A DNA stretch of 64,000 nt, from positions 62,001 to 126,000 of the forward strand of contig PLZV01000030.1 in assembly GCA_003152315.1 (NCBI GenBank), written 5' to 3'. Under the pieces are notes generated by a model, which was not told the DNA's origin, searched no databases, and saw only the letters and a list, made by a program, of their open reading frames with translations. The DNA is from Verrucomicrobiota bacterium (lineage in GTDB: Bacteria; Verrucomicrobiota; Verrucomicrobiia; Palsa-1439). Shown here piece by piece: positions 40,782 to 62,118 of this stretch; position 1 is the stretch's first letter; each line of letters starts with the position of its first letter. The position numbers and the translations under genes are program-made.

Positions 40782-42700
40782 TTTGTTCCTTTCTTCTTTT
40801 TCGTACCGTCGGCTGTTTTCGGTATTGGGGGCTTGGCTTCGTAATGCGGGCTTTGCTTCCGCCATTGCCTAACAACCGCAGGGTAGTCTGACTTGTCTCG
40901 CCTTTGATTCCAGCCCCCAGGGCCTTCGAATCCATCCTTTTGCAGGCTTCCCCTAACTGCAACGCGGGGATCTACGCTGTCGGGTCTCCGGTTCTTCGCG
41001 GGCGGGTCGATCAAAGTGCGAACAGGCAAACTGACGGCTTCGCCGACGATAATCGCCTCGCCCGTTCTAAGCACAGGCAGCATCTCGAACAAGCCTTTAA
41101 GGTTGTCTGAGGCTGCGCTGGTCACATGCCCGCGATCGGTGTCGTTGGCGAGTCGCATTGCGAATATGGTGCCACATTGTGAGAGGATCGTCTGGTCAAT
41201 TTCGGATGGCCGTTGGCTCACGACCATCAGACCGACACCATACTTGCGACCTTCCTTGGCAATCCGGCGCACCGCCGTCGCTGCCGCTCCTGAATTCTCC
41301 TTACCCAAGTAGGCGTGCGCCTCTTCAAGAACGATCAATAGCGGACGTTCGCGACCGCCTTCGGGCAATTTCCTCGCCCAGAAGAGCGCGTCGTATAAAA
41401 TGCGCAACAGCGCTCCGATCAGGTCATTCAGAACGGTCGATGGAATGCCAGATAGATCCAGAATCGTAATCGCCTTCGGCCCGCCAATCCAATCCTGCAG
41501 AAATGCGTCGAGGTCTTTGGTTGTCTTCCCGTCCAAGTCCGGAAGCCAATCTCCAGGCTTGAACAAAAAAGCAAAGCGGGGATCGCGGAGTTTGGATGCC
41601 AATCCCGCGATCTGCTGGCGAATACCGATGGCCTCCTTGCCATGGTTGACCCGCTCGGAAGCTGTTCCGGTCGTTTTCACAGTACGGTATAGAGGCGGTG
41701 TGACCGACATTGCGTCGCCCGTTTGGACAGGAGTGGTATCGTCGGCCAACACGTAAGCTGGCTCAATCTCGTCTGCACTTCCCCCCGGCTTTGGAATGAC
41801 CGTCATATTCTCCCTCTTGTGAAGCTCCAACCACATCTTGTGAATGCAGAATGGAACTGGGGAATCGACGGTTGTTGTTTCTGGTGTAACTCCATCACGC
41901 GGGTAACTGGATAAAGCTTCTCGCTTGAGTTGAAGCATGAAGTCCGCAACAGGAGCGGCCTTCTGCCCATCAAGGCCGCCAAATCCGAGCGAGATCAATT
42001 CTTCAAAACTGAGCGCCCAGAAGGGAATATGCAACATTCGCTCACCTTTACTTTCGTCAGCACCTACGCGAAAAACGGTGCTGCGATCTGAAAGAGCACG
42101 TGCATATTCTCCATGTATGTCCAATACAACGATGCGTGCGGACGGATACCGAACGGAGTCTGAGAGCGATGTGAGAAGTCCTGCAACTGTCGTAGATTTT
42201 CCTGCGCCGGTTGTACCAACGATGGCTGCGTGACGGGTTATCAACTTGTTAATGTCCACCAAGGTAGGAATCGATTCTGCGCTTGCCAAATGGCCAATCG
42301 AAACGAAGTCATCGGGTTCGCCGGGGCCATAAATCGCTCGCAGGTCTGCCTCAGTAACGATGTGAACGCGGTCATCAATCGTGGGATGTTGCGAAATCCC
42401 ACGCTCAAATTGGCCACCCGGTCTTCCTTCGCCGACCAACTGCACCAGCAACCAACGGTTACCATAGGGGTGTTGGTCGCCTTCCCGTACAGGTGCTGCT
42501 CCCGCACCGACCTGAGACACTACGCCGTACAGACTGGCAAAACCTAATGGAATTCGCACGAAACTACCGACCTGTCCGATACGGTACCCCTCACCATTGA
42601 CAAAACTCAGGCCGGTTACAGTCTCATTCGTCAACTCGACCCGGATGGTCGCTCCGTTAACGTCCTGTACCGTGCCAATCAGCGTCGGATCATTTGGCAT
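40778..42700 (-). CDS. HerA-type (DUF87) DNA-translocase ATPase, about 640 aa
   Basis: I start at the ATG at 42700, which overlaps the SIR2 gene by 11 nt and gives MPNDPTLIGTVQDVNGATIR, a HAS-barrel-like start. Walker A is IVGTTGAGKSTTV near residue 168. RIVVLDIHGEYARAL follows. Walker B is PLLIVLEEAHAYLGKE. The C-terminal MVVSQRPSEIDQTILSQCGT is the HerA/FtsK sensor region. HerA hexamers move DNA. In Sir2-HerA anti-phage systems HerA assembles with the SIR2 partner and controls its activity. Confidence 0.85.
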   Translation of the reverse strand: MPNDPTLIGTVQDVNGATIRVELTNETVTGLSFVNGEGYRIGQVGSFVRIPLGFASLYGVVSQVGAGAAPVREGDQHPYGNRWLLVQLVGEGRPGGQFERGISQHPTIDDRVHIVTEADLRAIYGPGEPDDFVSIGHLASAESIPTLVDINKLITRHAAIVGTTGAGKSTTVAGLLTSLSDSVRYPSARIVVLDIHGEYARALSDRSTVFRVGADESKGERMLHIPFWALSFEELISLGFGGLDGQKAAPVADFMLQLKREALSSYPRDGVTPETTTVDSPVPFCIHKMWLELHKRENMTVIPKPGGSADEIEPAYVLADDTTPVQTGDAMSVTPPLYRTVKTTGTASERVNHGKEAIGIRQQIAGLASKLRDPRFAFLFKPGDWLPDLDGKTTKDLDAFLQDWIGGPKAITILDLSGIPSTVLNDLIGALLRILYDALFWARKLPEGGRERPLLIVLEEAHAYLGKENSGAAATAVRRIAKEGRKYGVGLMVVSQRPSEIDQTILSQCGTIFAMRLANDTDRGHVTSAASDNLKGLFEMLPVLRTGEAIIVGEAVSLPVRTLIDPPAKNRRPDSVDPRVAVRGSLQKDGFEGPGGWNQRRDKSDYPAVVRQWRKQSPHYEAKPPIPKTADGTKKKKGTK

Positions 42701-43910
42701 CGTTTTTCCCTTTGTCGTCTTCGCGATTCGACAACTGGTGAGTAAGGAATTGTCCGAGGGCTTTGAAGTCGCCAAGAAGAAACTTGGAACGCTCAGCGGG
42801 TGCGTCGGTGCGCTGATTCATTTCGCCAGTCTGTGCTGCTAGGCCGCACAGAGGATGATCTGCCTTATCTTCAGAGTGCCAGTCCTGCTCGACCGTATTG
42901 AGGACAGCGCCGTCCACGGCCAGCAGGCTCAGGTTCGCGCGAGAGCGAGCAGATTTGACTGCGACATCATAGTGTTTCCGGTCTCCGAACAACAACCCGA
43001 AGCAGATTGCTGTCGAGTTCCCTGTCAGTCCCTGCAAAATCACATCATTAAGATGCCGATCTGAGAATGAGTAACCACAGGTGACCAAAACAGCTTGGCC
43101 GCGAAGAAGGAAGCTGCGCAGCCGGTCCAGCATTGCCAAATAAGGCATACGACGACTCTCATCATACTTCAGGTGCGAAGGATGAATCATTTGTTGAGCC
43201 CCGTCATTCAGATTTGTATGCCGCTCGATATTCCCTGTTTCGCTGCGCCACCAATTGACCGATCCATGAACTTTCCATAGGCGCGCCCAGCGACTGGGCA
43301 GAGCGTCTTGCTCCATTGAGGCGAGATCGAAGAATGTACGATCAGATCCGATAAACCCATCGAAATACGGAACTCGCTGTTTCTCAAGTGCCTGTTCGGC
43401 CAGAAGGTCGTAGTTGGGCGTGAATACCTCGACGGGATGAGCACGCGTTACACCGCCAATCCATGCCGCGAGGTGATGGAAGGGAGTATCGTCAGAAGGC
43501 AGCGGGACACTAACGACGTTGGTGGTAATCCGGCAAATCTCTTTATCCAAATCGAGAAGATTCTTCTGGGATAATCCATCAATGTTACCGCTCCCGACCA
43601 CTTCTTGAAGGGCGCGAATATGGCTAAGAATCTCCTCGATGTTCGGATTGCCTTTGCCACTTGTGGACAATCGTTGAAGGATGACTGCAAAACTGGCTTT
43701 TAACTCGGCATTTGCATTGAGCGAAGACAAAATCTGCTTGGTCAGTCCATCAATGTCTGGAATTAACGGCTTTGTTCCGGTGCCGTCGGGAACTCGGATC
43801 GCTGTGGGACACCCCGCTCCAAGGAAAAACGCCACACGCATTTTATCAGGCGCCAACGCTTGTTGCAGAAGCGAAGCCTGTCGGTAAGGACAATGAAATG
43901 ACGCTGCCAT
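42690..43910 (-). CDS. SIR2-family effector of a SIR2-HerA system, 406 aa
   Basis: SIR2 motifs appear in order: FFLGAGCP (GAG at residues 31-33), FTPNYDLL (T-x-N-Y-D at 164-168), WKVHGSVNW (catalytic His at 215) and VTCGYSFSDRHLNDVI. Defence SIR2 proteins degrade NAD+, and some SIR2-HerA complexes have also been reported to cut DNA. The gene overlaps herA, starts 18 nt after DUF2130, and so belongs to the same unit. NADase activity is predicted from intact motifs, not shown. Confidence 0.83.
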   Translation of the reverse strand: MAASFHCPYRQASLLQQALAPDKMRVAFFLGAGCPTAIRVPDGTGTKPLIPDIDGLTKQILSSLNANAELKASFAVILQRLSTSGKGNPNIEEILSHIRALQEVVGSGNIDGLSQKNLLDLDKEICRITTNVVSVPLPSDDTPFHHLAAWIGGVTRAHPVEVFTPNYDLLAEQALEKQRVPYFDGFIGSDRTFFDLASMEQDALPSRWARLWKVHGSVNWWRSETGNIERHTNLNDGAQQMIHPSHLKYDESRRMPYLAMLDRLRSFLLRGQAVLVTCGYSFSDRHLNDVILQGLTGNSTAICFGLLFGDRKHYDVAVKSARSRANLSLLAVDGAVLNTVEQDWHSEDKADHPLCGLAAQTGEMNQRTDAPAERSKFLLGDFKALGQFLTHQLSNREDDKGKNDAK

Positions 43911-43928
43911 GACGATAACCTCGATTGA

Positions 43929-45203
43929 CTACGTTACGGCTGGTTTGGGCGCTTCCAGCGCCTTCATCTCCAACCCTTCGATTTCCTGAATGGTCTTGCC
44001 GGCGATACCTTGAAGATCGCCGTACATGCCAACGGTGGCCCCCATGACATTTCCAATTTGTTCCTCGCGCTTTGCCCACTGTTTCGTGATCACCTTCTTC
44101 TCCTTGTTGAGGTCGTCTTGCATCGAAGAGAAGGCTTCAACGATTGCCTGCACCCGTTGACGAAATCGCGGTCCTGTTAGGTATTGATAGAGCATCTCCG
44201 TTTTGGTCTGTTGGCCCTCAGACGCTTGCCGGGCAAAGGCGACTTCCAGCAACGTCTGCCGGAGCACCATGGCGACCGGGATGGCCGTGTTCGGTCGTGT
44301 GACCCACACACCATCCATGAACTCGAAAGTTTCCACGCCCTTTGGAAGCGTTTTCGTCACGATCACCGCAAGTTCGGCTTTGGCTTTGCGCTGGTCATCG
44401 CGAAGCTTCACAAGCCAACCATCGCTCCAGCCCTTTGTTCGTTTCGATTCCCATAGAATCGTACCACATGTCTGGCCAGTCGGACTGACGACTCGATGCA
44501 ACACGTCGCCGCCATGTTCGCCTTTCGGGACTGGCTCGATGGTGTCACGCGGAAACTTGGCACGCAACAACCCTTCCAACTCCAGTTCCTGCACTTCGCC
44601 CTGGAGTTGTTGGGAACCCTGCTCGGCCTTGCGTTTGAGGACTTCAATCTGCGTCTGCATGGAGATTATGGTTTGTTCTTTCTCCATAACCTTGAGTTTC
44701 ATTTCCTCCTCAGCCTCTTTTCGAGCTTGCTGACGAGTGGCTGTCAGCCCTTCCTGCACCCGCTTCTCGACGTTCAGTTCAAGCTCGCGTTTTGCATCAT
44801 CCAGTTCGCGTTGCTTCCGTAACAGACCGGCTTGGGCTTGCTGAGCCTCGGCAAGCTTGGTGTCGCGCTGCTTGAGGATTTCCTGGAGGTCAGCCAACTC
44901 TCTGATTTTTTGTTCCAGATCATTCCCCAAAGCGAGCTTCGCTTTCTTGGCTTCTTCGGTCGCGATCTTCGAGCGTTCCTGTCGGACTTTTTCCGCGACC
45001 TGATCGTCGATGGTGTCTTTGGCCTTTGAGAGCGCGGCCTCGCGTTCCTGAAGCGAGCCCTCTCGCTTGGCAATATCTGTGTCCTTCTGTGTCAACCGTT
45101 GTTCATACTCGCGGCGGGTCGTCTCAATGAGCGGGGCGGCCAGCGATTCGGTGAGTTTGATCTCGTTCTTACACTTCGGACAAATGATTGTTGGTTCCGC
45201 CAT
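43929..45203 (-). CDS. DUF2130 protein: zinc ribbon, coiled coil, nuclease-like C-terminus
   Basis: A ribosome site AAGGAG precedes the ATG at 45203, so I use that start rather than 45236 (about 424 aa). The N-terminus has a Cys pair (IICPKCKNEI), followed by a 200-residue coiled coil (for example EQRLTQKDTDIAKREGSLQE). From about residue 235, DUF2130 proper begins: RGDVLHRV-type core in GGDVLHRVVSPTGQTCGTIL, then WESKRTKGWSDGWLVKLRDD. That is a D...E-x-K pattern suggesting a PD-(D/E)xK fold. It lies 17 nt after the helicase gene and probably works with it. Confidence 0.75.
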   Translation of the reverse strand: MAEPTIICPKCKNEIKLTESLAAPLIETTRREYEQRLTQKDTDIAKREGSLQEREAALSKAKDTIDDQVAEKVRQERSKIATEEAKKAKLALGNDLEQKIRELADLQEILKQRDTKLAEAQQAQAGLLRKQRELDDAKRELELNVEKRVQEGLTATRQQARKEAEEEMKLKVMEKEQTIISMQTQIEVLKRKAEQGSQQLQGEVQELELEGLLRAKFPRDTIEPVPKGEHGGDVLHRVVSPTGQTCGTILWESKRTKGWSDGWLVKLRDDQRKAKAELAVIVTKTLPKGVETFEFMDGVWVTRPNTAIPVAMVLRQTLLEVAFARQASEGQQTKTEMLYQYLTGPRFRQRVQAIVEAFSSMQDDLNKEKKVITKQWAKREEQIGNVMGATVGMYGDLQGIAGKTIQEIEGLEMKALEAPKPAVT

Positions 45204-45220
45204 TGTTCGCTCCTTGTTAC

Positions 45221-48070
45221 TCATTTGAGGCACCATCGAATACTGAAAAGGGTCTTTATTTCCACGCTTTGTTGCAGCTTTCCTTCGATCTGAAGAATGA
45301 ATTCCTCTCGCCGTTTGTCCACGTCATCCTGTGCGTCAAACAAGGAACGACGCTTTTGGCTGCGCTGAGATTCCAGCGCTTTGATTTGCTTCTGACCGGC
45401 GAGCTTCTCTTCAAGCGTCAAAGCCGTGGTCGCGGCACGTCGGGCTTCCTTAATCTGGCGGTCGAGCTCCTTGATTTCCCGTTCCAAGCCCAATTTCAGG
45501 TCGTCCGACCAGCCTTCGAGTTTTTCGGCCTCGATCTCGAAGAAGCGTGCGTTGCGTTCGGAGATCACGCGCTGGATTGATTCCTGCCGCTGGCGGGTAA
45601 TTGCGGACAAGGCATCGGGAAGCGGCGCGCTGAGGTTATCGCGTCCTACCTTACCGGGGAGCGAGAACAAACGGTTCGTGGCTTCTTCGTCGAGGACTTG
45701 TCCCACATCAGTGACAGCAGCAAATACAAGATGGTCTTCTGTGTGGTCGAGTGATTCTACTGTGAACATCGAAAGAGACAGAGATCCGGTCTTGCCGAGC
45801 AACGGTTCCAAGGCGCTGACGATTCCTTCGTGTTCACTGTAATCGAAGTGAATCTCGACCGGAGCGAGGTCGCGGTTCTTGGCCTGCGATAGCACCGAGT
45901 CCGCCAGCGGATGATTGAGCCGGTAAAGATGCGCCTCTCCAGAACGACGCGGGAGTTCGTAAAGACCCAATGGGATGTCGCCAGCGAAGGGGCACGTCTT
46001 CAGGTGGAATGATGAATCGTCAACAAACTCGGCGTGTCTGTTCAACTCGTGCCGGGTGAGTTGAATGAGCAGGCGCTCATATTGGTTCAGGTAAGCGCGG
46101 GATGCTTCGTCGCTCACCTTGAGCTTTTCCCGGACTTCGTCATCAAAGTTTTCCAGCAGTTGCCGCCGCGTGCGGGTCATCGCCTCATTGATCTCCAGAC
46201 TCAACTCAAGCTGAAGCTGGTCGAAGGCGGTCTTGATTTCTTCGGGTTTGCGGCAGCGCTGGTAGATACCAGCGATCCGTTTCTCAAAGTCCACGCCGGA
46301 TTCAATCGCTCCCAGCACTTCATCGCTGGCGCCGAAGATTCCCTCAAATAACTGGAATTTCTCCGAGAGGAGTTCGAAGACGCGGCGATCCGCTTCATTC
46401 TTGCGATTGAGAAAGTTGACGACCACGACATCGTGCTTCTGGCCATACCGGTGGCACCGGCCAATACGCTGTTCGATGCGTTGGGGATTCCACGGCAAGT
46501 CGTAGTTCACCACCAGCGCACAGAACTGCAAATTGATGCCTTCCGCACCGGCTTCGGTGGCGATCATGATGCGTCCCTCGTCGCGGAAATAGTCCACGAG
46601 TGCGGAGCGTAGGTCTGCCGTCTTCGAGCCGGATACTCGATCCGTACCCTGATGTCTTTCGAGCCATGCCGCGTAAATCTCTTTGGAGCGGTCATCGTTG
46701 TTGGAGCCGTTGAACAACACGATGCCGTCCTTGAACGGGCTGTCCGCAAGCACACGCAGTAGGTAGCTTTGCGTGCGGCGGGATTCTGTGAAGATGATGG
46801 CCTTTTGTGCAGCGCCTAGTTCAGCAGCTTTGGCGAAAGCAATGCCAAGCGCCTTGACCAAGGCTTTGCCTTTGGCGTTGTGGTCAATGGAGGTTGCAAG
46901 CTGCGCGAAACCGTCGAGGTCAGCAATCTCCTGCTTCAATGCGGCTTGGTCAGCATCGGAGAGCGGTTCGACCGGCTCTTCCTCGGGCCATTCGTCCGCA
47001 GTCTCGTCGAGAGCTTCGTAGTCTTCGTCGAGTTCGTCTTCGAGCGGCACTGCGGGTTGCTGTTTCGCGAGCTTTGCTTTGAGTCGCTTTGAAATGGATT
47101 CCAACGCGCCGGCGATGGCGAACGTCGAAGATGCGAGCAGTTTGCGGAGAACCAAAGTCATTAGCGAGCGCTGGCTGGCCGGTAGTGCCTGAAGATTGTC
47201 ACGGCGTAAGTACTCGGAAACGAGATTGTACAGTTGGTCTTCGCCTTCCTCCGGTGTGAACTCCTGGAGGATCGGACGCCGTTGCGTGTAGGGAATGTAA
47301 GAAGTGACCTGACGACGAAGCGTGCGATAGCACATCGGCTTCAGCCGGTCTTTCAGAGTTTTGAACACTTGTTCCTGACTGAGATTGGCAAACTGTTCGC
47401 GGAAACTCTTGAGGTCACCAAAGGCGTGCTCGTCAATAAAACTGACGAGGCCGAAAAGTTCGAGTAATGAGTTTTGCAGTGGTGTGGCGGTGAGGAGCAA
47501 CTTCGGAGCTTTCGCCAAGGCTTGTTTGAGCGTGTTGGCGATGACGTTGGAGGGCTTGTAAACGTTGCGAAGCCGGTGGGCTTCGTCGATAACCACAAGA
47601 TCCCACGGGGTGTTCGCGACATCCGGCGCTTTATTGCGCGCGAAATGGTAGGAACAAATGACAATGTCGTTCCCCTCAAAAGGGCGGAGTTTGCCCTGCT
47701 TGACGGCAGCATTGTAGGACTTCGCTTCGAGAATCCGGCAAGGCAGGAAGAATTTCTCCGTGAGTTCCTGGTGCCACTGTTTGCGGAGATTGGAGGGAAC
47801 AATGATCAGAATGCGTCGCTTCCGTTCCGCCCACTTTTGCGAAAGCACGAGACCAGCTTCGATTGTCTTCCCAAGCCCGACTTCGTCCGCCAATAGCGCG
47901 CCCTTGGAGAGCGGCGAATTGAATGCAAACAGAGCCGCGTCCACTTGGTGCGGATTCAGATCTACTTGCGCTCCCGCGACCGCTCCCGCGAGCTTTTCCA
48001 AGCTGTCGGAAGAGCACCGCTTGGTCAGTTCATGCGCGAAGTATTTCGCATGGTAGTCTGTAAGATTCAT
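45221..48070 (-). CDS. SNF2/RapA-like DEAH helicase, about 949 aa
   Basis: I start at the ATG at 48070 (MNLTDYHAKYFAHEL); the frame opens at 48121. Motif I is LADEVGLGKTIEAGLV, motif II is VVIDEAHRLRNV and motif III is LLLTATPLQNS. Motif VI lies in WNPQRIEQRIGRCHRYGQKH. This is the SNF2-like helicase pattern with an inserted acidic region (near residues 335-390). The C-terminal 250 residues contain a coiled coil (KELDRQIKEARRAATTALTL). Such stand-alone helicases are frequent in defence islands. It is the first large gene after the XRE regulator. Confidence 0.82.
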   Translation of the reverse strand: MNLTDYHAKYFAHELTKRCSSDSLEKLAGAVAGAQVDLNPHQVDAALFAFNSPLSKGALLADEVGLGKTIEAGLVLSQKWAERKRRILIIVPSNLRKQWHQELTEKFFLPCRILEAKSYNAAVKQGKLRPFEGNDIVICSYHFARNKAPDVANTPWDLVVIDEAHRLRNVYKPSNVIANTLKQALAKAPKLLLTATPLQNSLLELFGLVSFIDEHAFGDLKSFREQFANLSQEQVFKTLKDRLKPMCYRTLRRQVTSYIPYTQRRPILQEFTPEEGEDQLYNLVSEYLRRDNLQALPASQRSLMTLVLRKLLASSTFAIAGALESISKRLKAKLAKQQPAVPLEDELDEDYEALDETADEWPEEEPVEPLSDADQAALKQEIADLDGFAQLATSIDHNAKGKALVKALGIAFAKAAELGAAQKAIIFTESRRTQSYLLRVLADSPFKDGIVLFNGSNNDDRSKEIYAAWLERHQGTDRVSGSKTADLRSALVDYFRDEGRIMIATEAGAEGINLQFCALVVNYDLPWNPQRIEQRIGRCHRYGQKHDVVVVNFLNRKNEADRRVFELLSEKFQLFEGIFGASDEVLGAIESGVDFEKRIAGIYQRCRKPEEIKTAFDQLQLELSLEINEAMTRTRRQLLENFDDEVREKLKVSDEASRAYLNQYERLLIQLTRHELNRHAEFVDDSSFHLKTCPFAGDIPLGLYELPRRSGEAHLYRLNHPLADSVLSQAKNRDLAPVEIHFDYSEHEGIVSALEPLLGKTGSLSLSMFTVESLDHTEDHLVFAAVTDVGQVLDEEATNRLFSLPGKVGRDNLSAPLPDALSAITRQRQESIQRVISERNARFFEIEAEKLEGWSDDLKLGLEREIKELDRQIKEARRAATTALTLEEKLAGQKQIKALESQRSQKRRSLFDAQDDVDKRREEFILQIEGKLQQSVEIKTLFSIRWCLK

Positions 48071-48232
48071 GAATCCGCTTCCATCTCTTATCTCCGGGTG
48101 AACCTCGCCGTCCTTGACCAAGCATCATAGCAGGCATCGCAAGGAACACGAATGTCGATTTTCGCAGCGGATATTTGCCAAGGCAGGGCGTAACGCTGGC
48201 TGATGCGTACGCCCTGGCGACGCCAAGTGCAG

Positions 48233-49036: not shown

Positions 49037-50203
49037 CTACTTCTGCGCTATTCGCTCGATTAACTTCAGTTCTCGTTGCAGTTCCGTCTTCAACTCGGCC
49101 TCGGTGGGTAGGTGGAGTTTGTAGCGACTAGCAAAAATCTTCTGTTGCTGGTCCGGGCCAAGCGTGTACCGCACCACTGCATCGTTCTTGTCCGTGCACA
49201 AGATCAGTCCTAGCGTGGGATTGTCACCCAACGTTCGTCGCTCTTGATCGTAATAATTTACGTACAACTGAAGCTGGCCAAGATCCTGGTGCGTCAGCTT
49301 TCCAATTTTCAGATCAATCAGGACGTAGCATTTCAGGATGGTGTGGTAGAAAACGAGGTCGATGTAGAAATGATCGCCATCGATGGTCAGGCGTTCCTGC
49401 CGTGACACAAAGGCGAACCCTTTTCCCAGTTCCAGCAGAAATGCTTGCAGATGATTGATCAGCGCCTCTTCCAACTCCGATTCCACCAAACGGGTCGATT
49501 CGGGTAAACCGAGAAACTCGATCACGACCGGGTCTTTGAAAATATCCACCGCCTGCTGAACCTCGTGGCCTTTCGTAGCCAGTTTCATCAGGCCCGCCTT
49601 GTTCTTGCTCTTGGACAGCCGTTCAAACAGAAGACTGTTGATTTGCCGCTCCAGTTCCCGGGCCGACCAATTGTTGCGGATGGCTTCGATTTCGTAAAAC
49701 GCACGGGCCTGCGGCAGGTCCACGCGCAACAGGGTCCGGTAGTGCGTCCAAGAGAGGTTCGGGTGCAGCCGTCCGGGCTGCCAAGATTCTTTACCCGGCG
49801 CTTGCAGAATCTCTGAAACGGTCAACATGGCGGTGGCCGATGCAGGGGGAGCCGGAGATTTCCCACGCAGTGCGTGGGATTTCTCAGTGACCCGCAATTC
49901 CCCACGCGGCGCGTGGGAAATTGGTGTCGTCACCAATTTCGGATAGGTGATGTAAAAGTTGCGAAAATGCTCCAGATTGTTGACCGAATACCCGCTGCCA
50001 AACTCGCGCGTAATCTGCGCTGAAAGCGACGCGATCAACCGTTCGCCGTAGCCAGCGCGACGTTTTCCCAGCTGTTCCTGCTCAACGATCTCCCGGCCAA
50101 TTAGCCAATTGGCACAAACTTGGGTAGTGTTGACCGTGCGCGCTACACCAAGGCGCGCGGATTCCAGAATCTGCCGAATACGCTGGTAGAGTGTTGACCT
50201 CAT
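49037..50203 (-). CDS. DUF1016 / YhcG-type PD-(D/E)xK nuclease, about 388 aa
   Basis: The ATG at 50203 gives the family start RSTLYQRIRQILESARLGVA. The N-terminal DUF1016-N domain includes NWLIGREIVEQEQLGKRRAG and GYSVNNLEHFRNFY. The catalytic C-terminal domain has IDLVFYHTILKCYVLIDLKIGK (D...D-x-K) and QLQLYVNYYDQERR. A 30-residue segment between them (near residues 98-130) is encoded by three DNA hairpins and contains a repeated SHAxRG motif. YhcG proteins are common in defence islands and near restriction systems. The gene lies between the defence island and the coupling-protein operon on the same strand. Confidence 0.8.
   Translation of the reverse strand: MRSTLYQRIRQILESARLGVARTVNTTQVCANWLIGREIVEQEQLGKRRAGYGERLIASLSAQITREFGSGYSVNNLEHFRNFYITYPKLVTTPISHAPRGELRVTEKSHALRGKSPAPPASATAMLTVSEILQAPGKESWQPGRLHPNLSWTHYRTLLRVDLPQARAFYEIEAIRNNWSARELERQINSLLFERLSKSKNKAGLMKLATKGHEVQQAVDIFKDPVVIEFLGLPESTRLVESELEEALINHLQAFLLELGKGFAFVSRQERLTIDGDHFYIDLVFYHTILKCYVLIDLKIGKLTHQDLGQLQLYVNYYDQERRTLGDNPTLGLILCTDKNDAVVRYTLGPDQQQKIFASRYKLHLPTEAELKTELQRELKLIERIAQK
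49861..49939. repeat. Three tandem hairpins inside the DUF1016 coding region
   Basis: 49861-49879 is TCCCACGC-AGT-GCGTGGGA, 49901-49917 is CCCACGC-GGC-GCGTGGG, and 49918-49939 is AAATTGGTG-TCGT-CACCAATTT. All have perfect arms (8, 7 and 9 bp). The first two are near copies of one another, like a REP pair. The open frame passes through all three without interruption. Confidence 0.8.
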
Positions 50204-50267
50204 TTTCGTCTTTCTTACTACGCGTTCTCGCTTCATCAATTGCGGATCATATCACAGACCAATTTGA

Positions 50268-51758
50268 TCAGAATAGCCGCTTCCTGAACCACGGCGAGAC
50301 TTGGCCGTTGGGTTCGAGGGGCGGCAGGATTGTGCGTTTGAAGCCGTGTTCACAATGAACGAGAACAGCCGTGTGTTTCGGCAGGGCACGCAGAATGTGG
50401 GGTTTGATCTTGTGTTCCTCATGCTCGGCGTAGCTGCGGTTGGCTTGCCCGGCGGAATAACCCCATGTCTTCTTGATCACTTGTTTCTTGCCGAGAAAGT
50501 CGGCGCTGTCCAGCGCACCTTCCTCGTCGGCGGCTTTGAAGATGATGCGGTTGCGCAGATTGAGCACCAGCACCTTCGACTTATCCTTTCCAAGCGCTGG
50601 CAGAAATGATGTGGACGATTGCGCGGCGGCAACGACGGCGGCATTCGCCTCGCGGACCACGTCGATGGAATTGTAGTCGCTCATGCCGTCCTCGTTCGAG
50701 GTCATGAACCGCTGCGCTTCATCGGCCCAAAGAATAAGGAGATTGTCGTCTTTACGCTGTTCCTTCGGCCGGTCGAAGCGGCGCAAGACGTGCGTGTAGA
50801 AGAGCATTTTCAGGAACGTGTTCACGTACCGGCGTTCCGTCTGGAATTTTTGCGGCATCGCCACGCAGATGATCTTGCCCCGGTCGATGTCACCGAAATC
50901 GAACGTGTTTTTGCTCGGGCAAAAGACTTGCGCGATGTCCGGCGTGAGAAAATTGTGTAAATAGTTGGCGATGGTCTCTTTCACGCCGCCCATTTGTTCG
51001 GGCGGTTGGGTGATGTAACGGTTCTGCAGATGCTCCACGAGTACGCGGCGGCGCTCGGTCGGATAGCCGTCCGCCAACTCCTCTAGTGCGTCGTCGAGTT
51101 CCTCTTCGTTCAACAGGAGTTCGTGGGCGTTCTCCAATGTCACGTCGGCCTGAATTTCGTACAGCGCCTCCAATGCGTGCGCGATGTGCGTCTGCGCCTG
51201 GCTCTTGAAGAATCCCTTGTCGCCCTGCTGGCCGAGGCTGGCGGCCGTGTCCACGACGAACTTGGCGAACGTGCTGTACGGGATGCCGGCATCGGAAGTG
51301 AGATTATAGGTGTGCGTCGGTTTCCAACTGAGCGGTGCGTTGTCGGGTCGGACTTGGAGCAGGATCAAATCGTTCTGCCGGTTGAAATGGTGGGCCATCT
51401 CCGAGAGGGTTTCCCAATAAATACCTTTGTCATCAATGCAGAGTCCGCCCCAGCGTGGGTCGTTCTGGAACACTTGGTACAGCAGCGGTGTGATCCCGGA
51501 CCGCGTTTTTCCGGAGCCGGTGTCGCCGGTAATCAGCCAGCCGCGACAGAAATCCTCCCGCGTCCACGTCAGCCCCTTCAATCGCACGATCGGACGATGG
51601 CTCGTGCGAAGAGAAGTGGCAGCCGCGTAGCCGGCAAGAATCCCGAAGGTCGCGGCGAACACCCACGAGAGCGGTGGGGCTTGGCTCATGAGAAAGTACG
51701 CTCCGGCTACAAGGGACAAGCCGGCGGTTGTGAATCCAAGATGTCGCGCGTTGCTCAT
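50268..51758 (-). CDS. Type IV coupling protein (VirD4/TraG-like), 496 aa
   Basis: Two N-terminal transmembrane helices (residues 8-25 and 30-48) precede Walker A ITGDTGSGKTRS (residues 77-86). Walker B lies in NLLILWADEAQRF. The protein also has PQKFQTERRYVNTFLKML and a C-terminal FKAADEEGALDSADFLGKK, comparable to TraD/TraG proteins. Coupling proteins dock the relaxosome to the secretion channel and help pump DNA. At 496 aa it is compact and seems to lack a large all-alpha insert. It overlaps the 120-codon gene by 4 nt. Confidence 0.85.
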   Translation of the reverse strand: MSNARHLGFTTAGLSLVAGAYFLMSQAPPLSWVFAATFGILAGYAAATSLRTSHRPIVRLKGLTWTREDFCRGWLITGDTGSGKTRSGITPLLYQVFQNDPRWGGLCIDDKGIYWETLSEMAHHFNRQNDLILLQVRPDNAPLSWKPTHTYNLTSDAGIPYSTFAKFVVDTAASLGQQGDKGFFKSQAQTHIAHALEALYEIQADVTLENAHELLLNEEELDDALEELADGYPTERRRVLVEHLQNRYITQPPEQMGGVKETIANYLHNFLTPDIAQVFCPSKNTFDFGDIDRGKIICVAMPQKFQTERRYVNTFLKMLFYTHVLRRFDRPKEQRKDDNLLILWADEAQRFMTSNEDGMSDYNSIDVVREANAAVVAAAQSSTSFLPALGKDKSKVLVLNLRNRIIFKAADEEGALDSADFLGKKQVIKKTWGYSAGQANRSYAEHEEHKIKPHILRALPKHTAVLVHCEHGFKRTILPPLEPNGQVSPWFRKRLF

Positions 51759-52117
51759 TGCGTGAGCCTTCCGATCAGGATGCCCGCAAGCAGCGCCAGC
51801 GCGGCGGTGAATACCAACGCGAACATCGGGAAGCGGTTCAGGTCGCTCCTGATTTTCGGAACAGCCCGCAATTCCTCAATGATCTCGGCGGCTCGTCCGG
51901 TGAAGTCACCGCATAGCCGCTCCAACTGCTCCATCGTACTGCGGAAGTCTTCAAACGAAGGGGGTTGTTCCTTCGGTCCGTTGAGTTGAGCGTGGATGAA
52001 GTAAATTTCCCACAATTCCACAGCGGCCAGCATGGGATCGCCGTCCTGAACACTGTATTTCTTCCGCCATTCCAGAATGGCATTTTTCAGGGCCAGTTTT
52101 GGGTCGTCGTCGCTCAT
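51755..52117 (-). CDS. Small tail-anchored transfer protein, 120 aa, unknown
   Basis: A soluble helical part (LKNAILEWRKKYSVQDGDPM, MEQLERLCGDFTGRAAEIIE) is followed by one C-terminal membrane helix (MFALVFTAALALLAGILIG). It overlaps both ParA and the coupling protein gene by ATGA, so the three are translated together. Small membrane proteins beside coupling ATPases can act as docking partners (compare TraJ/MobB); this is inference. I do not recognise the family. Confidence 0.6.
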   Translation of the reverse strand: MSDDDPKLALKNAILEWRKKYSVQDGDPMLAAVELWEIYFIHAQLNGPKEQPPSFEDFRSTMEQLERLCGDFTGRAAEIIEELRAVPKIRSDLNRFPMFALVFTAALALLAGILIGRLTQ

Positions 52118-52812
52118 GCGTCACCCGGCAAGACGATTTGACGGACGGTGTTGATTTGTTCGTAAAACTGTCGCTGCCAGTTCTTGAGCCGCTGGCGGTC
52201 CATGAGGGAGAATTTCTGGTGTTGAATCCCCTGGCCGACAGGGAGATTTACCTGATGCAGCAACGCAACCAACCAGTCGTGGAGTTTGGGCATGATCATT
52301 TCCTTGGCAGCCAGTTCGTTCAACAATCGTTTCCGCGTCTTGCTGGTGTCGTAAATCGTGAAGTGCTCCGTGAGGCCGTGGTTCTTCACCACCAGATAGC
52401 GGCAGCGGTTGTTGAATGCCTTCGCGATGATTCTGATTTGCTCCACGCTGTCGAGGTCGTGATTCACCGGCGACACCACCGTCAGAGCGGCGCCCATGCT
52501 GTTGAGGACATCGAAGACCGTCAACTCGGCGAAGTAGTTCAGGAACACGTTCGTTGAGGCGGCTCGGCAATCCACCACCACGAGGCGGGCGCTTTCGACG
52601 GCGGCAACCAGTTCGTCGAGTTCCCGCAGGTTGGCGAGATTCACGAACCGGGCGTCCGGGTGAAATCGTTTCAGGGTCGAGTTCTCGTTATCCGTGTCAA
52701 TGGCGACATGGGGCATCTGCTGGTCTTTGAGGTACTGAACGAAATTCGTGGCAAAGAAGCTTTTTCCAACTCCACCCTTGCCGTTGAGAACGAGATTGAT
52801 CTGTTTTTGCAT
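52114..52812 (-). CDS. ParA/MinD-like ATPase, about 232 aa
   Basis: The ATG at 52812 starts MQKQINLVLNGKGGVGKSFF, so the deviant Walker A (KGGVGKS) lies at residues 12-18; the longer frame from 53007 overlaps the preceding gene. IDTDNENSTLKRF and LVVVDCRAAST correspond to Walker A' and B. It is a TraL/ParA-like protein and could aid element partitioning during the circular phase or relaxosome placement. No ParB homologue is seen nearby. It starts 2 nt after the stop of the upstream gene. Confidence 0.78.
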   Translation of the reverse strand: MQKQINLVLNGKGGVGKSFFATNFVQYLKDQQMPHVAIDTDNENSTLKRFHPDARFVNLANLRELDELVAAVESARLVVVDCRAASTNVFLNYFAELTVFDVLNSMGAALTVVSPVNHDLDSVEQIRIIAKAFNNRCRYLVVKNHGLTEHFTIYDTSKTRKRLLNELAAKEMIMPKLHDWLVALLHQVNLPVGQGIQHQKFSLMDRQRLKNWQRQFYEQINTVRQIVLPGDA

Positions 52813-52814
52813 GG

Positions 52815-53219
52815 CTAAACGGTGTTGGGATCGGCGATGCGTGGTCCGTTTGCTTCCGTCCAGCGGTCGGCCTTTTGCGGTGAACCGCCGGGACTCAGTG
52901 CCTGTGGTGCGGGTGAATCCTTGCCCGGTCTTTTCCTCACTCTCGGCGTCGAGGTCTTCCGCTTCCGCCTGTAGCGAGCCTTTGGTTCGCCCAGGATTTC
53001 GTGACAAAACCGAAAAACCGTGTCACAGGCTACCTGGATGTCGAGGTTGTGCAGAATGTCCGCGATGGTCTTGTAAGACGCGCGCCTTTTCCTCAAATCC
53101 GCGATTCCCGCTTTCAGCGGCAGCAGTTTTTGAAACTTGCGCGAAGGCTTTGGCGCATAGTCTCGGATGGCGCTTTCAAACCTGCTCGTATGTGAATCGG
53201 ATGCCGAATCGGATTTCAT
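52815..53219 (-). CDS. Small HTH-like DNA-binding transfer protein, 134 aa
   Basis: A central segment, GIADLRKRRASYKTIADILH followed by ACDTVFRFCHEIL, has the look of a helix-turn-helix found in small conjugation-associated proteins. The C-terminal third is very basic and Pro/Ser-rich. It is the first gene of the leftward operon with parA, the 120-codon gene and the coupling protein, and it is divergent from the relaxase. A relaxosome accessory or regulator role is likely but not shown. Confidence 0.6.
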   Translation of the reverse strand: MKSDSASDSHTSRFESAIRDYAPKPSRKFQKLLPLKAGIADLRKRRASYKTIADILHNLDIQVACDTVFRFCHEILGEPKARYRRKRKTSTPRVRKRPGKDSPAPQALSPGGSPQKADRWTEANGPRIADPNTV

Positions 53220-53345: not shown

Positions 53346-53377
53346 CAAATCGCGGTTTGTCACCGTATTCCTTGCGC

Positions 53378-56200
53378 ATGCTGTCGCGAAAAGTGCAATG
53401 CAACCTGGCCAACGCGAAGGAGTATTTCGAGGAACACCTTTGTGCGGGTGACTACTACAGCGAAGGCGAACAGATCACCGGTCAGTGGTGCGGCATTGGT
53501 GCGGAATCGCTGGGTCTATCAGGAAAGGTGAAGCGCGACGAGTTTTTGAGCCTGTGCGACAATCTCGATCCGAACACTGGCAAACTGCTCACGCAGCGGC
53601 TCAAGACCACCCGAACCGTGACCGGTGACGATGGCGATGCGCAGACCATTGCCAACCGGCGCGTGTTCTTCGACTTCACGTTTTCCCCGCCCAAGTCGGT
53701 CTCCGTGGTCGCACTGGTCGGAGAGGATGGCCGCATCGTGGATGCCCACAACCGCGCGGTTCAGGCAGCGGTGACGGAATTGGAACGGTTTGCAGGGACA
53801 CGTGTGCATTCCGGCGGCCACATATCCGACCGGGTCACAGGTAACGTCATGTGCGCCGTGTTTCGCCACGACACGTCGCGCGCGCTCGATCCGCACCTGC
53901 ACAGCCACTGCATTGTGTTCAACGCCACGTACGACAATGTTGAAAAGCGATGGAAGGCCCTGCAGAACTTCGAGATGGTGCACGCGCGGAAATACATTGA
54001 GAACGTCTATTACCACGAGCTGGCACGCGAACTTCGACGTTTCGGCTACGACGTGGTCAACCATCCGCGTGGGGATTTTGAGATCAAAGGGGTTTCCAAG
54101 GAACTTTGTCAGCGGTTCTCCAAACGGCATGAGGAAATCGACGAGAAAACGCGGGAGTTACTGGTGCAGAAGCCGCATTTGGCAGGCGGGAACGTCAAGG
54201 ACATACGGGAAGGCATCGCCCAAAGCGAGCGACTGCGGAAGATCAAGGGAATCACGGCTGAGGAACTCCGTAGTCTGTGGATGGGCCAGGTCTCGAAGGC
54301 CGAAAAGAAAACGATAGCTGCGTTGAAAAGCGGCTCGGTAACGCAATCAACCACGCAAAAGAAGGATCGCGCCATTGAGGCGGTTGTTTGGGCGGAAGAA
54401 CACCTGTTTGACCGCCGCTCGGTCGTCCCGGAGTACGAACTGTGGCGACACGCACTGGAACACGTGCGAGGCGGCAACGTCTCAATTGCGGAAATTCAGG
54501 ATGTCACCCGCAAGCGGAATTATGTCCGTAACGCAAACAGTCGTTACGGAGTTACGACACGGACGGTGTTGGACCGCGAATGGGACATCGTCTCCACGGC
54601 AAGGGAAGGGATCAGACAGTTTCGTCCGTTCTGCGTAAATCACTCGGTCATGAAGTCTGGTCTCGACCAGGATCAAAGCCAAGCGGTCGAGCACATATTG
54701 GGTTCCCGCGACTTTGTGACCTTGTTTCGCGGTGGCGCGGGCACCGGCAAAAGCTATGCACTTCGGGAAGTGAGGAACGGACTGCTGGCGACCGGGCACC
54801 CGCTGCAAGTCATAGCGCCGCAACGCCAGCAGGTCATCGATCTGGAGCATGATGGAATGACTGGCGCTCAGACCGTCAGCGAATTCCTCGCGAAGCGGCA
54901 ATTGCCTCGTGGTGCGGTTGTCATCGTGGACGAGGCCGGACAAATTGGCGCGAAGCAAATGCAGCAGCTTCTTCACTATGTCCAAGACAGCGGGGGCCGG
55001 GTCATTCTCTCCGGGGATACGCGCCAGCACGGTCCGGTGGAAGCATCCGACGCATTGTGGGCAATCGAAAAATACTCGGGACTGAAGCCAGCCGAACTGA
55101 AAGAAATTCGTCGGCAAGACCCAGCCCGTGGCAAGACCAAGGAGGAGCGAGCGCAGATCGCGGAATACAAACAGGCCGTGAAAGAGGCGTCCGAAGGTAA
55201 GCTCAGTGATTCGTTCCGCCGATTGGAGCGGCAAGGCGCACTCGTTGAGTGTTCGTCACTCAACCGGCAGGAGCACCTCGCCGAACAGTTCCTCGCCTTG
55301 GTCGATCAGAAACATTCGGTTGTGGTCGTTTCGCAAACGTGGTCGGAGATTCACAAGGTAAACGAGCGCGTGCGCTCCGCCCTGAAGTCTCGCGGCCTGT
55401 TAGGCGCGAACGAACAGACGATGACCGCGCTTGAGCCGGTCGATCTGACAGCCGCGCAGAAACGGGATCGGCGGTTCTACGATGAGAACAGCGTTGTGCT
55501 GCTGAATCGCAACGCGGGTGGCTTCAAAAAAGGTCATGCAGCCCGTCTCGTGGATATCACGCGCACCGGAGTCGTCTTGGAAAGTGCAAACAGCGTGCGG
55601 ACCATCCCGTTCAAGTTTGTGGATCGTCTCACCGTATGCCAGCCTCGCGAACTCGCGCTGGCAACAGGTGACCGGCTCCAACTGAAAGCCAACGCGGCAG
55701 CCACAGACGGGCGGCGCGTCGCAAATGGCGAGTTGGTCACAGTCGAAAAAGTGTCAACGGATGGACGAATCAAGCTCCGCGACGGGCGAACTCTCGCGAA
55801 GAATTACCGGCAGTTCGTGCGCGGCTTCGCGATCACTTCGTATGCGTCACAGGGCAAGACTGTCGATTACGTCCTGTTTTCCGATTCCGCCATCAAGCCG
55901 GCCACGAACCGGCAGCAGTGGTACGTGACGATCTCGCGCGGGCGCAAAGGCATCAAGATTTTCACCAGCGACAAAGCACAATTGCGAGAGAACATTCTCC
56001 GCTCTGGCGACCGCGCTCTGGCTATGGACCTAGCAACCAAAGGATTCGTCCAAAGGCTCGGAATCCCTTGGAGGTGGGTTCGCAGTTATCGTCATCCCCG
56101 CGCATTCGCGGTGACCATCAAGCAACGGATGCGCAAGTTCATGGCCGCCCGGAGAACACGCCACATTCGTCAAGCGCCTTCAGTTGCGGTGACCTCATGA
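53378..56200 (+). CDS. MobF-family (TrwC/TraI) conjugative relaxase-helicase, 940 aa
   Basis: I use the ATG at 53378 (MLSRKVQCNLANAKEYFEEH); a TTG at 53357 is possible. The relaxase domain spans about residues 1-290, with YYSEGEQITGQWCG for the catalytic Tyr pair (near 24-25), FDFTFSPPKSVSV, and the metal-binding His cluster DPHLHSHCIVF near residue 173. The helicase half begins near 430 with Walker A FRGGAGTGKSYAL (about residue 454), then VIVDEAGQIG and QHGPVEASDALW. Near residue 830 lies SYASQGKTVD. It nicks oriT and unwinds the transferred strand. oriT is probably in the region before 53378, but I cannot point to the nick site. Confidence 0.88.
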   Translation: MLSRKVQCNLANAKEYFEEHLCAGDYYSEGEQITGQWCGIGAESLGLSGKVKRDEFLSLCDNLDPNTGKLLTQRLKTTRTVTGDDGDAQTIANRRVFFDFTFSPPKSVSVVALVGEDGRIVDAHNRAVQAAVTELERFAGTRVHSGGHISDRVTGNVMCAVFRHDTSRALDPHLHSHCIVFNATYDNVEKRWKALQNFEMVHARKYIENVYYHELARELRRFGYDVVNHPRGDFEIKGVSKELCQRFSKRHEEIDEKTRELLVQKPHLAGGNVKDIREGIAQSERLRKIKGITAEELRSLWMGQVSKAEKKTIAALKSGSVTQSTTQKKDRAIEAVVWAEEHLFDRRSVVPEYELWRHALEHVRGGNVSIAEIQDVTRKRNYVRNANSRYGVTTRTVLDREWDIVSTAREGIRQFRPFCVNHSVMKSGLDQDQSQAVEHILGSRDFVTLFRGGAGTGKSYALREVRNGLLATGHPLQVIAPQRQQVIDLEHDGMTGAQTVSEFLAKRQLPRGAVVIVDEAGQIGAKQMQQLLHYVQDSGGRVILSGDTRQHGPVEASDALWAIEKYSGLKPAELKEIRRQDPARGKTKEERAQIAEYKQAVKEASEGKLSDSFRRLERQGALVECSSLNRQEHLAEQFLALVDQKHSVVVVSQTWSEIHKVNERVRSALKSRGLLGANEQTMTALEPVDLTAAQKRDRRFYDENSVVLLNRNAGGFKKGHAARLVDITRTGVVLESANSVRTIPFKFVDRLTVCQPRELALATGDRLQLKANAAATDGRRVANGELVTVEKVSTDGRIKLRDGRTLAKNYRQFVRGFAITSYASQGKTVDYVLFSDSAIKPATNRQQWYVTISRGRKGIKIFTSDKAQLRENILRSGDRALAMDLATKGFVQRLGIPWRWVRSYRHPRAFAVTIKQRMRKFMAARRTRHIRQAPSVAVTS

Positions 56201-56622: not shown

Positions 56623-56988
56623 TCAGAAGCTGTATTCCTCGACCTCATGCAAGCACCAGATGACTCGGCTACGGTAGATGATGAAGTGGCTCCTGCACCC
56701 TACGGTTCTTCTTACCGATGGCAATAAGGTCACGTGCCCATTTCTGTGTTTCTGAAGTCTCCACGAAGGCCGAGCATCGTGAACCAAACTTAGGTGAATC
56801 ACATCCTCACAGCCACAAGGACAGCGGAGTGCCGCAGCCCAAACACACTCGTCATCCCCGATCTGGTAAATCACATTGGGACGGATCAAATCGGGCAGTC
56901 GCTTGGTCTTCTGCGTCCGGAACCGCGGCGGTTCACGGCGATTGGCGCGAAGCCAATCAGCCAACCGTTTTCGGAAGATGCGTCTCAT
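56623..56988 (-). CDS. DUF6527-type protein of a ubiquitin-like operon, 121 aa
   Basis: The ATG at 56988 overlaps the E1 stop (ATGA); the longer frame from 57084 is inside E1. The protein contains a Cys-x-Cys-x-Cys cluster, LRCPCGCEDVIHLSLVHD, then PSWRL, GHVTLLPSVRRTVGCRSHFI and a final RVIWC. This matches DUF6527, a small metal-binding-looking family encoded with bacterial ubiquitin-like genes as I recall. It may process or deconjugate the modifier; that is inference. It is the last gene of the operon. Confidence 0.75.
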   Translation of the reverse strand: MRRIFRKRLADWLRANRREPPRFRTQKTKRLPDLIRPNVIYQIGDDECVWAAALRCPCGCEDVIHLSLVHDARPSWRLQKHRNGHVTLLPSVRRTVGCRSHFIIYRSRVIWCLHEVEEYSF

Positions 56989-58373
56989 AATAAGGCTGGG
57001 TTCCCTAGCAGCGGATTCACATCGCCCCGGCCGACGCAACGATAAAGCAGCTTGCAGGGCGGGCCATCTGGAAGTTGTAGCCAAGATCCATCACAAAGCG
57101 AGAACACCTGATATCGAAAGCCTTGATTCGGGTCACGCCGGTAGGGGTGCACTCGTGCGAGCATCTCGTTCACAGCGTGCGTCGCGACGAAGCCGTTCAC
57201 GCTGATCACCGCTGGTCGGTCAACAGCGACACCCTTGATGTAGCCTTCCCTTTTCAAAGCGGCATACTGTTCCGGGTTCGTCCGGCGCAGTGCCTGCGCC
57301 TGCACCTGTTCCGGTGTAATCACCCCCCGCGATAAAAGGCTTGAGCCGCCCGGTATTAGATAATGCAATGCACAACATATCTGTTCAATTCCACCGCGAC
57401 CGTCCGCATCCAGCCGAACTCCAATATCGATGTAGGGCACCAAGTAATATGCGGCAATCCGATTCAATAGGTCCCGGCCATCAGCAGAGTCCATGCATCC
57501 AAACAGGAAATCACAGCCTGCCAAGGAATTGATCACTTCCGTCTTAGCCAAGTCGCATTGGAAGGTTTCGACAATCGTACCGAGTCCGATCGCTCGAACC
57601 GCATCTGCCAGAACATTTACTTTCGCGCGTTTGTTTTCTGCATCGACTGCCTTAGAGTTAACGATTCGATTCAGGTTCTTACGCTCAATGTGATCAGGGT
57701 CGATCAAAACGAGTTGTCCGACACCCAATCTAGTGAGTGCTTCAATTACCCAGCTACCCGTCCCCGAACAGCCAACCACTCCGATAGTCATCGATTTGAG
57801 CAGATTTACAGTTCCATCTCCAAACACCTGACGGGTTCGCAAGTTGACTTCATCTTCATTCAGCCGTGATTCGGCTTTAGTGAAGGATACCTCATCGCCA
57901 ACGGCCATTACTCGATCCACGGCCTGAAAACCCGCTTCGGTGTCCACAACACGGGCCCAAAGCTTTCCAGATGGCGACATGAATGCGCTGATCAGGCTTG
58001 GTGAGCGTTCCAGAACTGCCTCGATTGCTTTCCCCAATTGAGAATCCGTTTCGTCGTCTTGCGGAGAAAATCGCTCATATCCCTCCGGATGGGAGTGAAT
58101 CTTCATCACCCACATCCCTCGCTTGAGTGCCTTCTCCAACACAGGCACGAGCGTCTGCACGTCCCATCGAACTGCCGACCGGCTACGAAGCGAACAAGCC
58201 TTGACGGGAACTTCGGTTATTTCATGTACACAATAGACCTGGTTGTCCTTGCCAATGCGCGTCCCGCATAGAGCCAAAGCCGCCGACTCTCGCCCGTCGC
58301 CGGAAAAGAGATGGCACTGTAACCGAATTCGCTGCTCCTCAGTGAGGCGCAGTCTCCTGCTGGGGACGTCCAT
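56985..58373 (-). CDS. JAB deubiquitinase-like - E1-like fusion of a ubiquitin-like system, 462 aa
   Basis: I start at the ATG at 58373, 2 nt after the E2 stop. Residues about 20-150 are a JAB/JAMM peptidase: Glu near 51-54, then KIHSHPEGYERFSPQDD with H93, H95, S103 and D106 in perfect H-x-H-x7-S-x2-D spacing. Residues about 180-400 are a ThiF/E1 adenylation domain: IGVVGCSGTGSW, LVLIDPDHIERKNLNRIV, DAENKRAKV and CMDSADGRDLLNRI. At residues 342-349 the sequence is GGSSLLSR, with Ser344/345 and Ser348 where I would expect Cys-x-x-Cys. C-terminal adenylation of the modifier is predicted; transfer chemistry is discussed under findings. Confidence 0.85.
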   Translation of the reverse strand: MDVPSRRLRLTEEQRIRLQCHLFSGDGRESAALALCGTRIGKDNQVYCVHEITEVPVKACSLRSRSAVRWDVQTLVPVLEKALKRGMWVMKIHSHPEGYERFSPQDDETDSQLGKAIEAVLERSPSLISAFMSPSGKLWARVVDTEAGFQAVDRVMAVGDEVSFTKAESRLNEDEVNLRTRQVFGDGTVNLLKSMTIGVVGCSGTGSWVIEALTRLGVGQLVLIDPDHIERKNLNRIVNSKAVDAENKRAKVNVLADAVRAIGLGTIVETFQCDLAKTEVINSLAGCDFLFGCMDSADGRDLLNRIAAYYLVPYIDIGVRLDADGRGGIEQICCALHYLIPGGSSLLSRGVITPEQVQAQALRRTNPEQYAALKREGYIKGVAVDRPAVISVNGFVATHAVNEMLARVHPYRRDPNQGFRYQVFSLCDGSWLQLPDGPPCKLLYRCVGRGDVNPLLGNPALL

Positions 58374-58375
58374 TT

Positions 58376-62102: not shown

Positions 62103-62118
62103 AACCGATAACAGCAAG

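Follow-up and report, generated by a model that had tools for sequence, protein, structure and literature searches.

The window analysed here is a 64,000-nucleotide stretch of a Verrucomicrobiota genome (contig PLZV01000030.1, positions 62,001 to 126,000 of the forward strand), and all coordinates below refer to it. Between 40778 and 63369 it carries a DUF1016/YhcG nuclease gene among genes that are likely those of an integrative conjugative element with defence-type cargo:

40778-42775, HerA, adjoining the SIR2-like gene
42690-43910, SIR2-like gene
43929-45236, DUF2130 gene
45221-48121, SNF2 helicase
49037-50239, minus strand, DUF1016/YhcG nuclease gene (400 amino acids), which matches the PADLOC candidate defence system PDC-S02
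50268-51758, TraD-like gene
52114-53007, ParA-like gene
53357-56200, TrwC relaxase
56985-58406, ThiF/JAB gene
61978-63369, phage-type integrase

DUF1016 genes on plasmids (L144, L147, L151, L141, L152) adjoin genes for a restriction S subunit, a DNA methyltransferase or a recombinase/integrase.

The protein encoded in the window has two Pfam domains over the cut-offs, DUF1016_N (residues 21-207, E = 5.6e-37) and YhcG_C (residues 232-387, E = 5.6e-58), and Pfam detected nothing besides these two. Within the gene we distinguish the following features:

49079-49546, minus strand, PD-(D/E)XK nuclease domain YhcG_C, residues 232-387 (Pfam)
49640-49756, minus strand, LSWTHYR..., residues 162-200, putative counterpart of the ParB helix-turn-helix stretch with its GHAR-type motif (from profile comparisons on homologues and fold-comparison rows)
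49790-49924, minus strand, variable linker, residues 106-150, predicted to be disordered (pLDDT <50), inside DUF1016_N
49858-49882, minus strand, palindrome unit 2, 25 bp, centre at 49870, 10/12 pairs, encoding KSHALRGKS
49897-49921, minus strand, palindrome unit 1, 25 bp, centre at 49909, 11/12 pairs, encoding ISHAPRGEL
49917-49940, no strand, third hairpin, perfect 10-bp arms and a 4-nt loop
49952-50002, minus strand, FGSGYSVNNLEHFRNFY, residues 80-96, tentatively assigned by eye as standing in place of the ParB recognition helix

An earlier note on this DNA, made from the letters alone, had described three perfect hairpins absorbed in frame into the nuclease gene as a linker with a repeated SHAxRG motif. 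All three are indeed read through by the minus-strand gene, and the two units do repeat this peptide. Perfect pairing holds for the cores (TCCCACGC-N3-GCGTGGGA at 49861-49879 and CCCACGC-N3-GCGTGGG at 49901-49917) and for the arms of the third hairpin, but not for the full 25-bp units. Two of the three share a core, whereas the third hairpin differs from the units in sequence and overlaps unit 1 by 5 nt; its membership in the family feature described below is only putative. The note had also placed the hairpins between the N-domain and the catalytic domain. Given the domain boundaries, they lie inside DUF1016_N instead. The two units are spaced by 39 nt, the commonest spacing in the DUF1016 family (25/80). 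When synonymous codons were redrawn from the gene itself, only 26 of 20,000 recoded linkers had at least two 25-bp dyads of at least 10/12 pairs, as the window gene has.

The hairpins had been taken for a REP-like mobile repeat, which should be dispersed in the genome. However, across the 4.89-Mb genome the strict core was detected at two places, both within the DUF1016 gene, and a looser pattern added a single place (L127, at about position 10668 of contig C53 in genome G000). A genome-wide REP was ruled out on this basis, as the many dispersed and mainly extragenic copies that mark REPs are not seen here. BLAST of the insert against its own genome returned the insert itself, its own inverted match and then 11 short matches at E values of 0.3-6.8. 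At the extra place on C53, a ParA-like frame similar to that at 52114-53007 continues directly into a DUF1016-like peptide, IRHAVRTEPWQP. The junction looks as if a related element broke and rejoined at a palindrome, and we read this place as a remnant of such an element. RAYT transposases are linked to REP elements as their enzyme partner, and a search for one had been proposed together with the search for dispersed copies. The genome has 11 Y1_Tnp matches, a count that takes RAYT and IS200 members together, so enzymes of the IS200/RAYT type are present, but the palindrome itself was not found in dispersed copies.

The palindromes are better understood from homologues. We assembled 109 loci, of which 80 come from other species and the remainder from a set of 57 related genomes, and 108 of them gave a tblastn match with an open frame. 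L039 was dropped because its linker was too short for scoring, and with the window's own added there were 108 linkers in total, of which 103 are distinct. They span 20 to 112 amino acids between the NFY helix and LSWTHY, and the peptides found there include SHAxRG, SETVSRK, SDAVRRK, GYALRS and QQPVAQ. Linker length and unit number differ from homologue to homologue, and short homologues with a single unit also show palindromes in their DNA. We defined a unit as two 12-bp arms around one centre base, with at least 9/12 positions paired and the centre at codon position 1. At least one unit occurs in 100 of the 103 distinct linkers (180 units in total), and the other two phases and even centres combined gave 10 hits. 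After synonymous recoding of the 103 linkers a mean of 9.8 genes had a unit (maximum 21), which rules out a chance origin. The three linkers without a unit are those of L096, L114 (8/12) and L044 (poorly aligned). Outside the linker, the rest of the genes showed no phase preference, with 18, 23 and 22 odd-centred hits in the three phases in 104,886 bases.

A second set was independent of similarity to the window. Among 150 evenly drawn Pseudomonadota genomes, 30 have DUF1016_N and each contributed one locus, one of which (L244) is the Variovorax gene already present as L068. A phase-0 unit with at least 9/12 pairs was found in 24 of the 30 loci (recoding mean 4.4, maximum 9, which leaves room for a few chance cases among the 24), one with at least 10/12 in 20 (mean 0.5, maximum 3) and one with at least 11/12 in 17 (mean 0.05, maximum 1). 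Loci without a unit were L229 and L241, plus the short frames L245, L246, L247 and L251. Plasmid and phage homologues, 12 of which were hand-picked for varied taxa among the 73 matches listed, have a unit in 11 cases, the exception being that of Ilyobacter (L141). The position is constant as well: among the 16 short-linker genes that the motif caught, 15 have the centre of the unit exactly 4 codons ahead of L-x-W.

Phase-0 dyads with at least 11/12 pairs anywhere in the genes encode 94 distinct 9-residue peptides. Peptides thus differ widely while pairing persists, and purely protein-level conservation was ruled out. The earlier note had named, as the outcome that would speak against it, homologues that all carry the same peptide in non-palindromic codons; nearly the opposite was observed, as homologues from many phyla share the type of palindrome, its place and its codon phase but have other arms and other peptides. 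An absorbed mobile REP is therefore not supported, and what stands of that proposal is that palindromic DNA encodes a linker predicted to be disordered. In the sets examined the palindrome is family-wide, fixed in place and codon phase, and its arms have been kept pairing as their sequence drifts.

The unit has a defined anatomy: the centre is purine-N-pyrimidine (R-N-Y), the stem covers positions 2 to 12 of either arm, and the ends are rich in A/T. In the window's subfamily the consensus is ATT NNNN ACGCA N TGCGT NNNN AAT, and elsewhere the stems read CAGAC/GTCTG (E. coli), GAGAC/GTCTC (Variovorax) or CAACAG/CTGTTG (a Wolbachia-like group). Pairing is strong at positions 2-12, falls to 90/180 at position 13 (78 expected) and is at or below expectation at positions 14-16. 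Position 1 is a purine on the left and a pyrimidine on the right with little covariation (97/156 paired; shuffle mean 87, maximum 104), and the centre is therefore described as R-N-Y, a form present in 167 of 170 distinct units. A similar pattern whose core is shorter occurred at 12 places in the 57 genomes, and by eye none of these places had fully paired arms.

Because the 180 units had been picked for pairing, we repeated the covariation test on 156 units (146 distinct) chosen by six constant bases and codon phase alone. At arm positions 6-9 of this arm-blind set, 504 of 584 pairs are Watson-Crick, against 131-185 when the partner is slid by one or two bases; shared ancestry is only partly removed from these comparisons, as the slid control keeps it and the shuffles do not. 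Mismatches in the arms of the 146 distinct units include 16 G-T (64 expected) and 26 A-C (73 expected). G-U pairs should be tolerated in an RNA stem, yet G-T is as depleted as A-C, which suggests a constraint at the level of DNA rather than mRNA.

This bears on the possibility that the hairpins work in the transcript, by slowing translation or by being bound for autoregulation. The earlier note had suggested that the mRNA folds strongly here and could slow translation between domains. The first part holds as a prediction, as the minus strand of 49840-49960 folds as RNA at -50 kcal/mol (shuffle mean -31.5, z = -6.1), and the weak covariation at position 1 would suit a 3-nt loop. The tolerance of G-U typical of RNA stems is not seen, however, extra units lie in intergenic DNA of some genomes, and Rfam returned no match at the gathering score. 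We consider a role of mRNA hairpins, slowing included, distinctly unlikely.

Which arm sequence is used appears to matter less than that the arms pair. In the first set, 121 of the 170 distinct units are fully paired in the arms, and 40 different arms occur. Arms are identical in 33 of 108 within-gene pairs of units and in 6.8% of comparisons between genes, and 12 of the 51 genes with at least two core-selected units have two fully paired units with different arms. As the units of one gene often differ in their arms, it is pairing and not one arm sequence that is kept.

Alleles of yhcG in E. coli show how the arms change. One to three units were present in all of 13 E. coli loci, picked from 60 matches listed, and three further loci have two units each. 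There are two allele families, in which unit 1 is ATTCGCCAGACAGTGTCTGGCGAAT or ATTGTGCAGACACTGTCTGCACAAT, with arms that differ on both sides; L134 and L135 show the same kind of two-sided difference in the arms of unit 2. Pairing is not perfect throughout, as unit 2 of the common family pairs at 9-10/12 and K-12 departs from the common allele on one side of unit 1. Comparison of L129 with L254 revealed 24 differences outside the linker (~1007 sites) and 34 inside (~106 sites). Two units were removed from an O157 allele by a 78-nt in-frame deletion, and another strain has a yhcG shorter by 80 nt that carries a frameshift annotation. Thus the linker changes much faster than the remaining gene, with pairing mostly kept. 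A yhcG match of any kind was found in 4417 of 5426 E. coli genomes and a match over at least 80% of its length in 3310; the gene is frequently lost or broken, with insertion sequences and deletions in several strains.

Equal arms could also be maintained by mutation. In quasipalindrome correction, template switching copies one arm onto the other, a mechanism documented in PMC8794818 and PMC7202029; the pairing would then be unused and the linker would merely tolerate it. Template switching accounts for the multi-base, two-sided changes, for the absence of G-T intermediates and for the fast change of the linker, and such repair probably helps to keep the arms equal. It is the main rival explanation for that equality. 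However, it acts on any quasipalindrome, whereas the unit keeps one codon position, an end near position 12, the R-N-Y centre and the A/T ends across the sampled subfamilies, and the rest of the genes lacks the phase preference. The flanking DNA (407,727 bases) contains 15 dyads with 11/12 or more pairs, against a mean of 2.0 after block shuffling; six of these have A/T ends (shuffled 0.2), and five of the six lie in the one apparently non-coding cluster described below. As the whole explanation of the palindromes, template switching therefore seems unlikely to us.

Copies of the palindrome also occur outside DUF1016 genes. In the 57 relatives an ACGC pattern was detected at 10 places in 5 genomes, with 5 places in DUF1016 genes and 4 outside them. 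One further place, imperfectly paired and in coding sequence of G004, was taken as a chance place; the homologue search found no DUF1016 relative in that genome. In G024 the single outside copy has the DUF1016 gene on one side and an HsdS-like gene on the other. Of the three in G034, one lies 490 bp upstream of its DUF1016 gene. The other two in G034 are identical, free-standing copies of ATTGTGCACGCACTGCGTGCACAAT on contigs C76 and C147 (L220 at 2140, L221 at 2176) that are apparently intergenic, and the 4.5-kb stretches around them contain no DUF1016 gene. In 48 host genomes the same pattern gave 51 places in 32 genomes (0 for the reversed-pattern control). Among these, 14 stretches were inspected, and tblastn detected a DUF1016 gene in 12, not in L208 or L214. 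In an Elusimicrobia genome (G088, L215) we observed an apparently non-coding cluster of palindromes at 1451-1975, just upstream of the DUF1016 gene. Its arms are varied, and three of its palindromes match the ACGC pattern.

These copies (in G034, G024, G088, L208 and L214) are what would be expected of a mobile palindromic element of the REP, RPE or PARCEL kind that spreads in trans, with the DUF1016 linker as a safe site and the nuclease perhaps as mobiliser. They are few, however (4 of the 10 places in the 57 relatives, plus the chance place), the window's genome has no strict-core copy outside the gene, and the units share one homologous position and phase and are not at scattered sites. 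The places inspected in the relatives and hosts are mostly in or near DUF1016 genes, with a few intergenic ones, and none of them was shown to be an insertion into another working gene. We regard spread as a mobile element as very doubtful.

What might recognise the palindrome is suggested by the protein itself. The window protein and a short homologue were modelled with AlphaFold2 (mean pLDDT 66 and 67); in both models the N-domain is better and the nuclease half of low confidence. In VIA-align, the first 11 rows for the homologue model (Z 7.5-9.3) and the first 7 for the window protein (Z 7.7-9.8) are all ParB/Spo0J/Noc; the best row has an rmsd of 3.0 over 111 residues at Z 9.8, the best non-ParB rows reach 7.2 and 7.4, and all of the ParB scores sit below the VIA-align caution level for helical folds. 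Several of the top ParB/Noc rows are structures crystallised on parS or NBS. Plain Foldseek on the homologue model returned nothing at E 0.001 or better, phmmer found no solved structure of a relative at E 1, and NCBIfam had no match.

Profile comparison points the same way. Aligned by hhalign, 22 DUF1016_N and 10 ParB domains score 32.0 (P 1.1e-4), and ELSWTHYR... is paired with KLTTGHAK...; the best of 60 column-permuted controls scored 18.1 and the reversed control 11.6. The Pfam HTH_ParB profile matched four of seven pieces at E 0.0005-0.006 and one at 0.12, all below the curated cut-off, and gave no match to two. From these sequence profiles and models, DUF1016_N is predicted to be a palindrome-binding domain of the ParB/Noc type, and in the ParB mapping the palindrome would sit between the counterparts of alpha-4 and alpha-6. 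A scan for parS-like sites that allowed up to 2 mismatches found none in the window and none in 15 ParB loci; it covered whole loci, including the 5 of the 15 in which the motif missed the ParB frame. The nuclease half of YhcG has been linked to YraN-type and archaeal Holliday junction resolvases (PMC1189080). Fold rows for this half were weak (EndoMS, Hjc) and prove nothing alone.

In combination, we favour a model in which the palindrome is recognised by the product of its own gene, a putative ParB-like and Holliday-junction-resolvase-like nuclease, to which we give a probability of about 0.5. DUF1016_N would bind the palindrome in its own gene, either as a duplex dyad or as an extruded hairpin or cruciform. 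Cruciforms are four-way junctions, and junctions of this kind are the substrates of the resolvases to which YhcG_C shows a resemblance. The bound palindrome may load, restrain or direct the attached nuclease, and the outcome could be self-regulation or self-cleavage, which may also drive linker cassettes to be exchanged. Where linkers are long, the unit would have multiplied, since the loop that follows the recognition helix can accommodate insertions in frame. The arm differences within genes speak against a dimer that reads one arm sequence. Counting against self-recognition as such are the genes without a unit (L096, L114, L044, L229, L241, L141 and the four short frames) and the many E. 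coli genomes that have no intact yhcG.

There is a further, quite improbable extension of self-recognition, in which site and reader are the same. The palindrome encodes the peptide between the putative recognition helix and the next DNA-contacting helix, that is, a part of its own putative reader, and each change of the site therefore alters the reader. The nuclease could in this way discriminate its own allele and attack or convert rival alleles or elements. If true, this would explain why E. coli has two allele families with different palindromes, and why the genes occur on conjugative elements and in candidate defence loci.

Some known systems resemble parts of this arrangement. In B. subtilis, a parS site lies inside spo0J itself. 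ParB-parS and Noc-NBS likewise combine a DNA-binding domain, here predicted, with a palindromic site, and have their GHAR-type motif where DUF1016 has WTHYR (PMC7383237). Unlike ParB and Noc, DUF1016 proteins bear a PD-(D/E)XK nuclease, and their 25-bp unit is distinct from parS and NBS, has variable arms and lies within the gene almost everywhere. PARCEL elements are also palindromic DNA that codes for in-frame protein repeats in many taxa, with a link to mobile elements, but they form 25-residue DUF285-type repeats in ORFs without an assigned function, many of them membrane-targeted, and their palindromes vary in length and phase (PMC2996958); neither "DUF1016" nor "nuclease" occurs in the main text of that paper. 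Rickettsia palindromic elements (RPE) are read in frame inside genes as well. They measure about 100-150 nt and insert not only into coding sequences but also into functional RNAs and intergenic regions (PMC4316617), whereas the DUF1016 unit has 25 bp and is tied to one gene family. The palindromes described here thus differ in anatomy from both RPE and PARCEL. REPs are palindromes of 20-40 bp (PMC3733652), and a partnership of enzyme and palindrome is a possible further likeness; DUF1016 units are neither high-copy nor mainly extragenic, and their partner would be a PD-(D/E)XK nuclease.

In the literature searched, which comprised titles and the beginnings of abstracts and had most subscription papers and preprints outside its scope, we found no description of palindromes in DUF1016/YhcG genes, and yhcG is absent from the main text of an inverted-repeat map of E. 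coli (PMC6060812). As a sequence feature the palindrome appears to be new, and its function may be a variant of ParB-parS.

DUF1016/YhcG is a widespread and uncharacterised nuclease family, with one member in E. coli K-12. A DNA structure kept in its genes across the sampled phyla gives a direct lead on substrate or regulation and brings the function of YhcG within reach of tests in a laboratory E. coli strain. In addition, the family offers an uncommon example of coding sequence that owes its shape to a DNA palindrome and not to the protein, in which the peptides differ and the palindrome stays.
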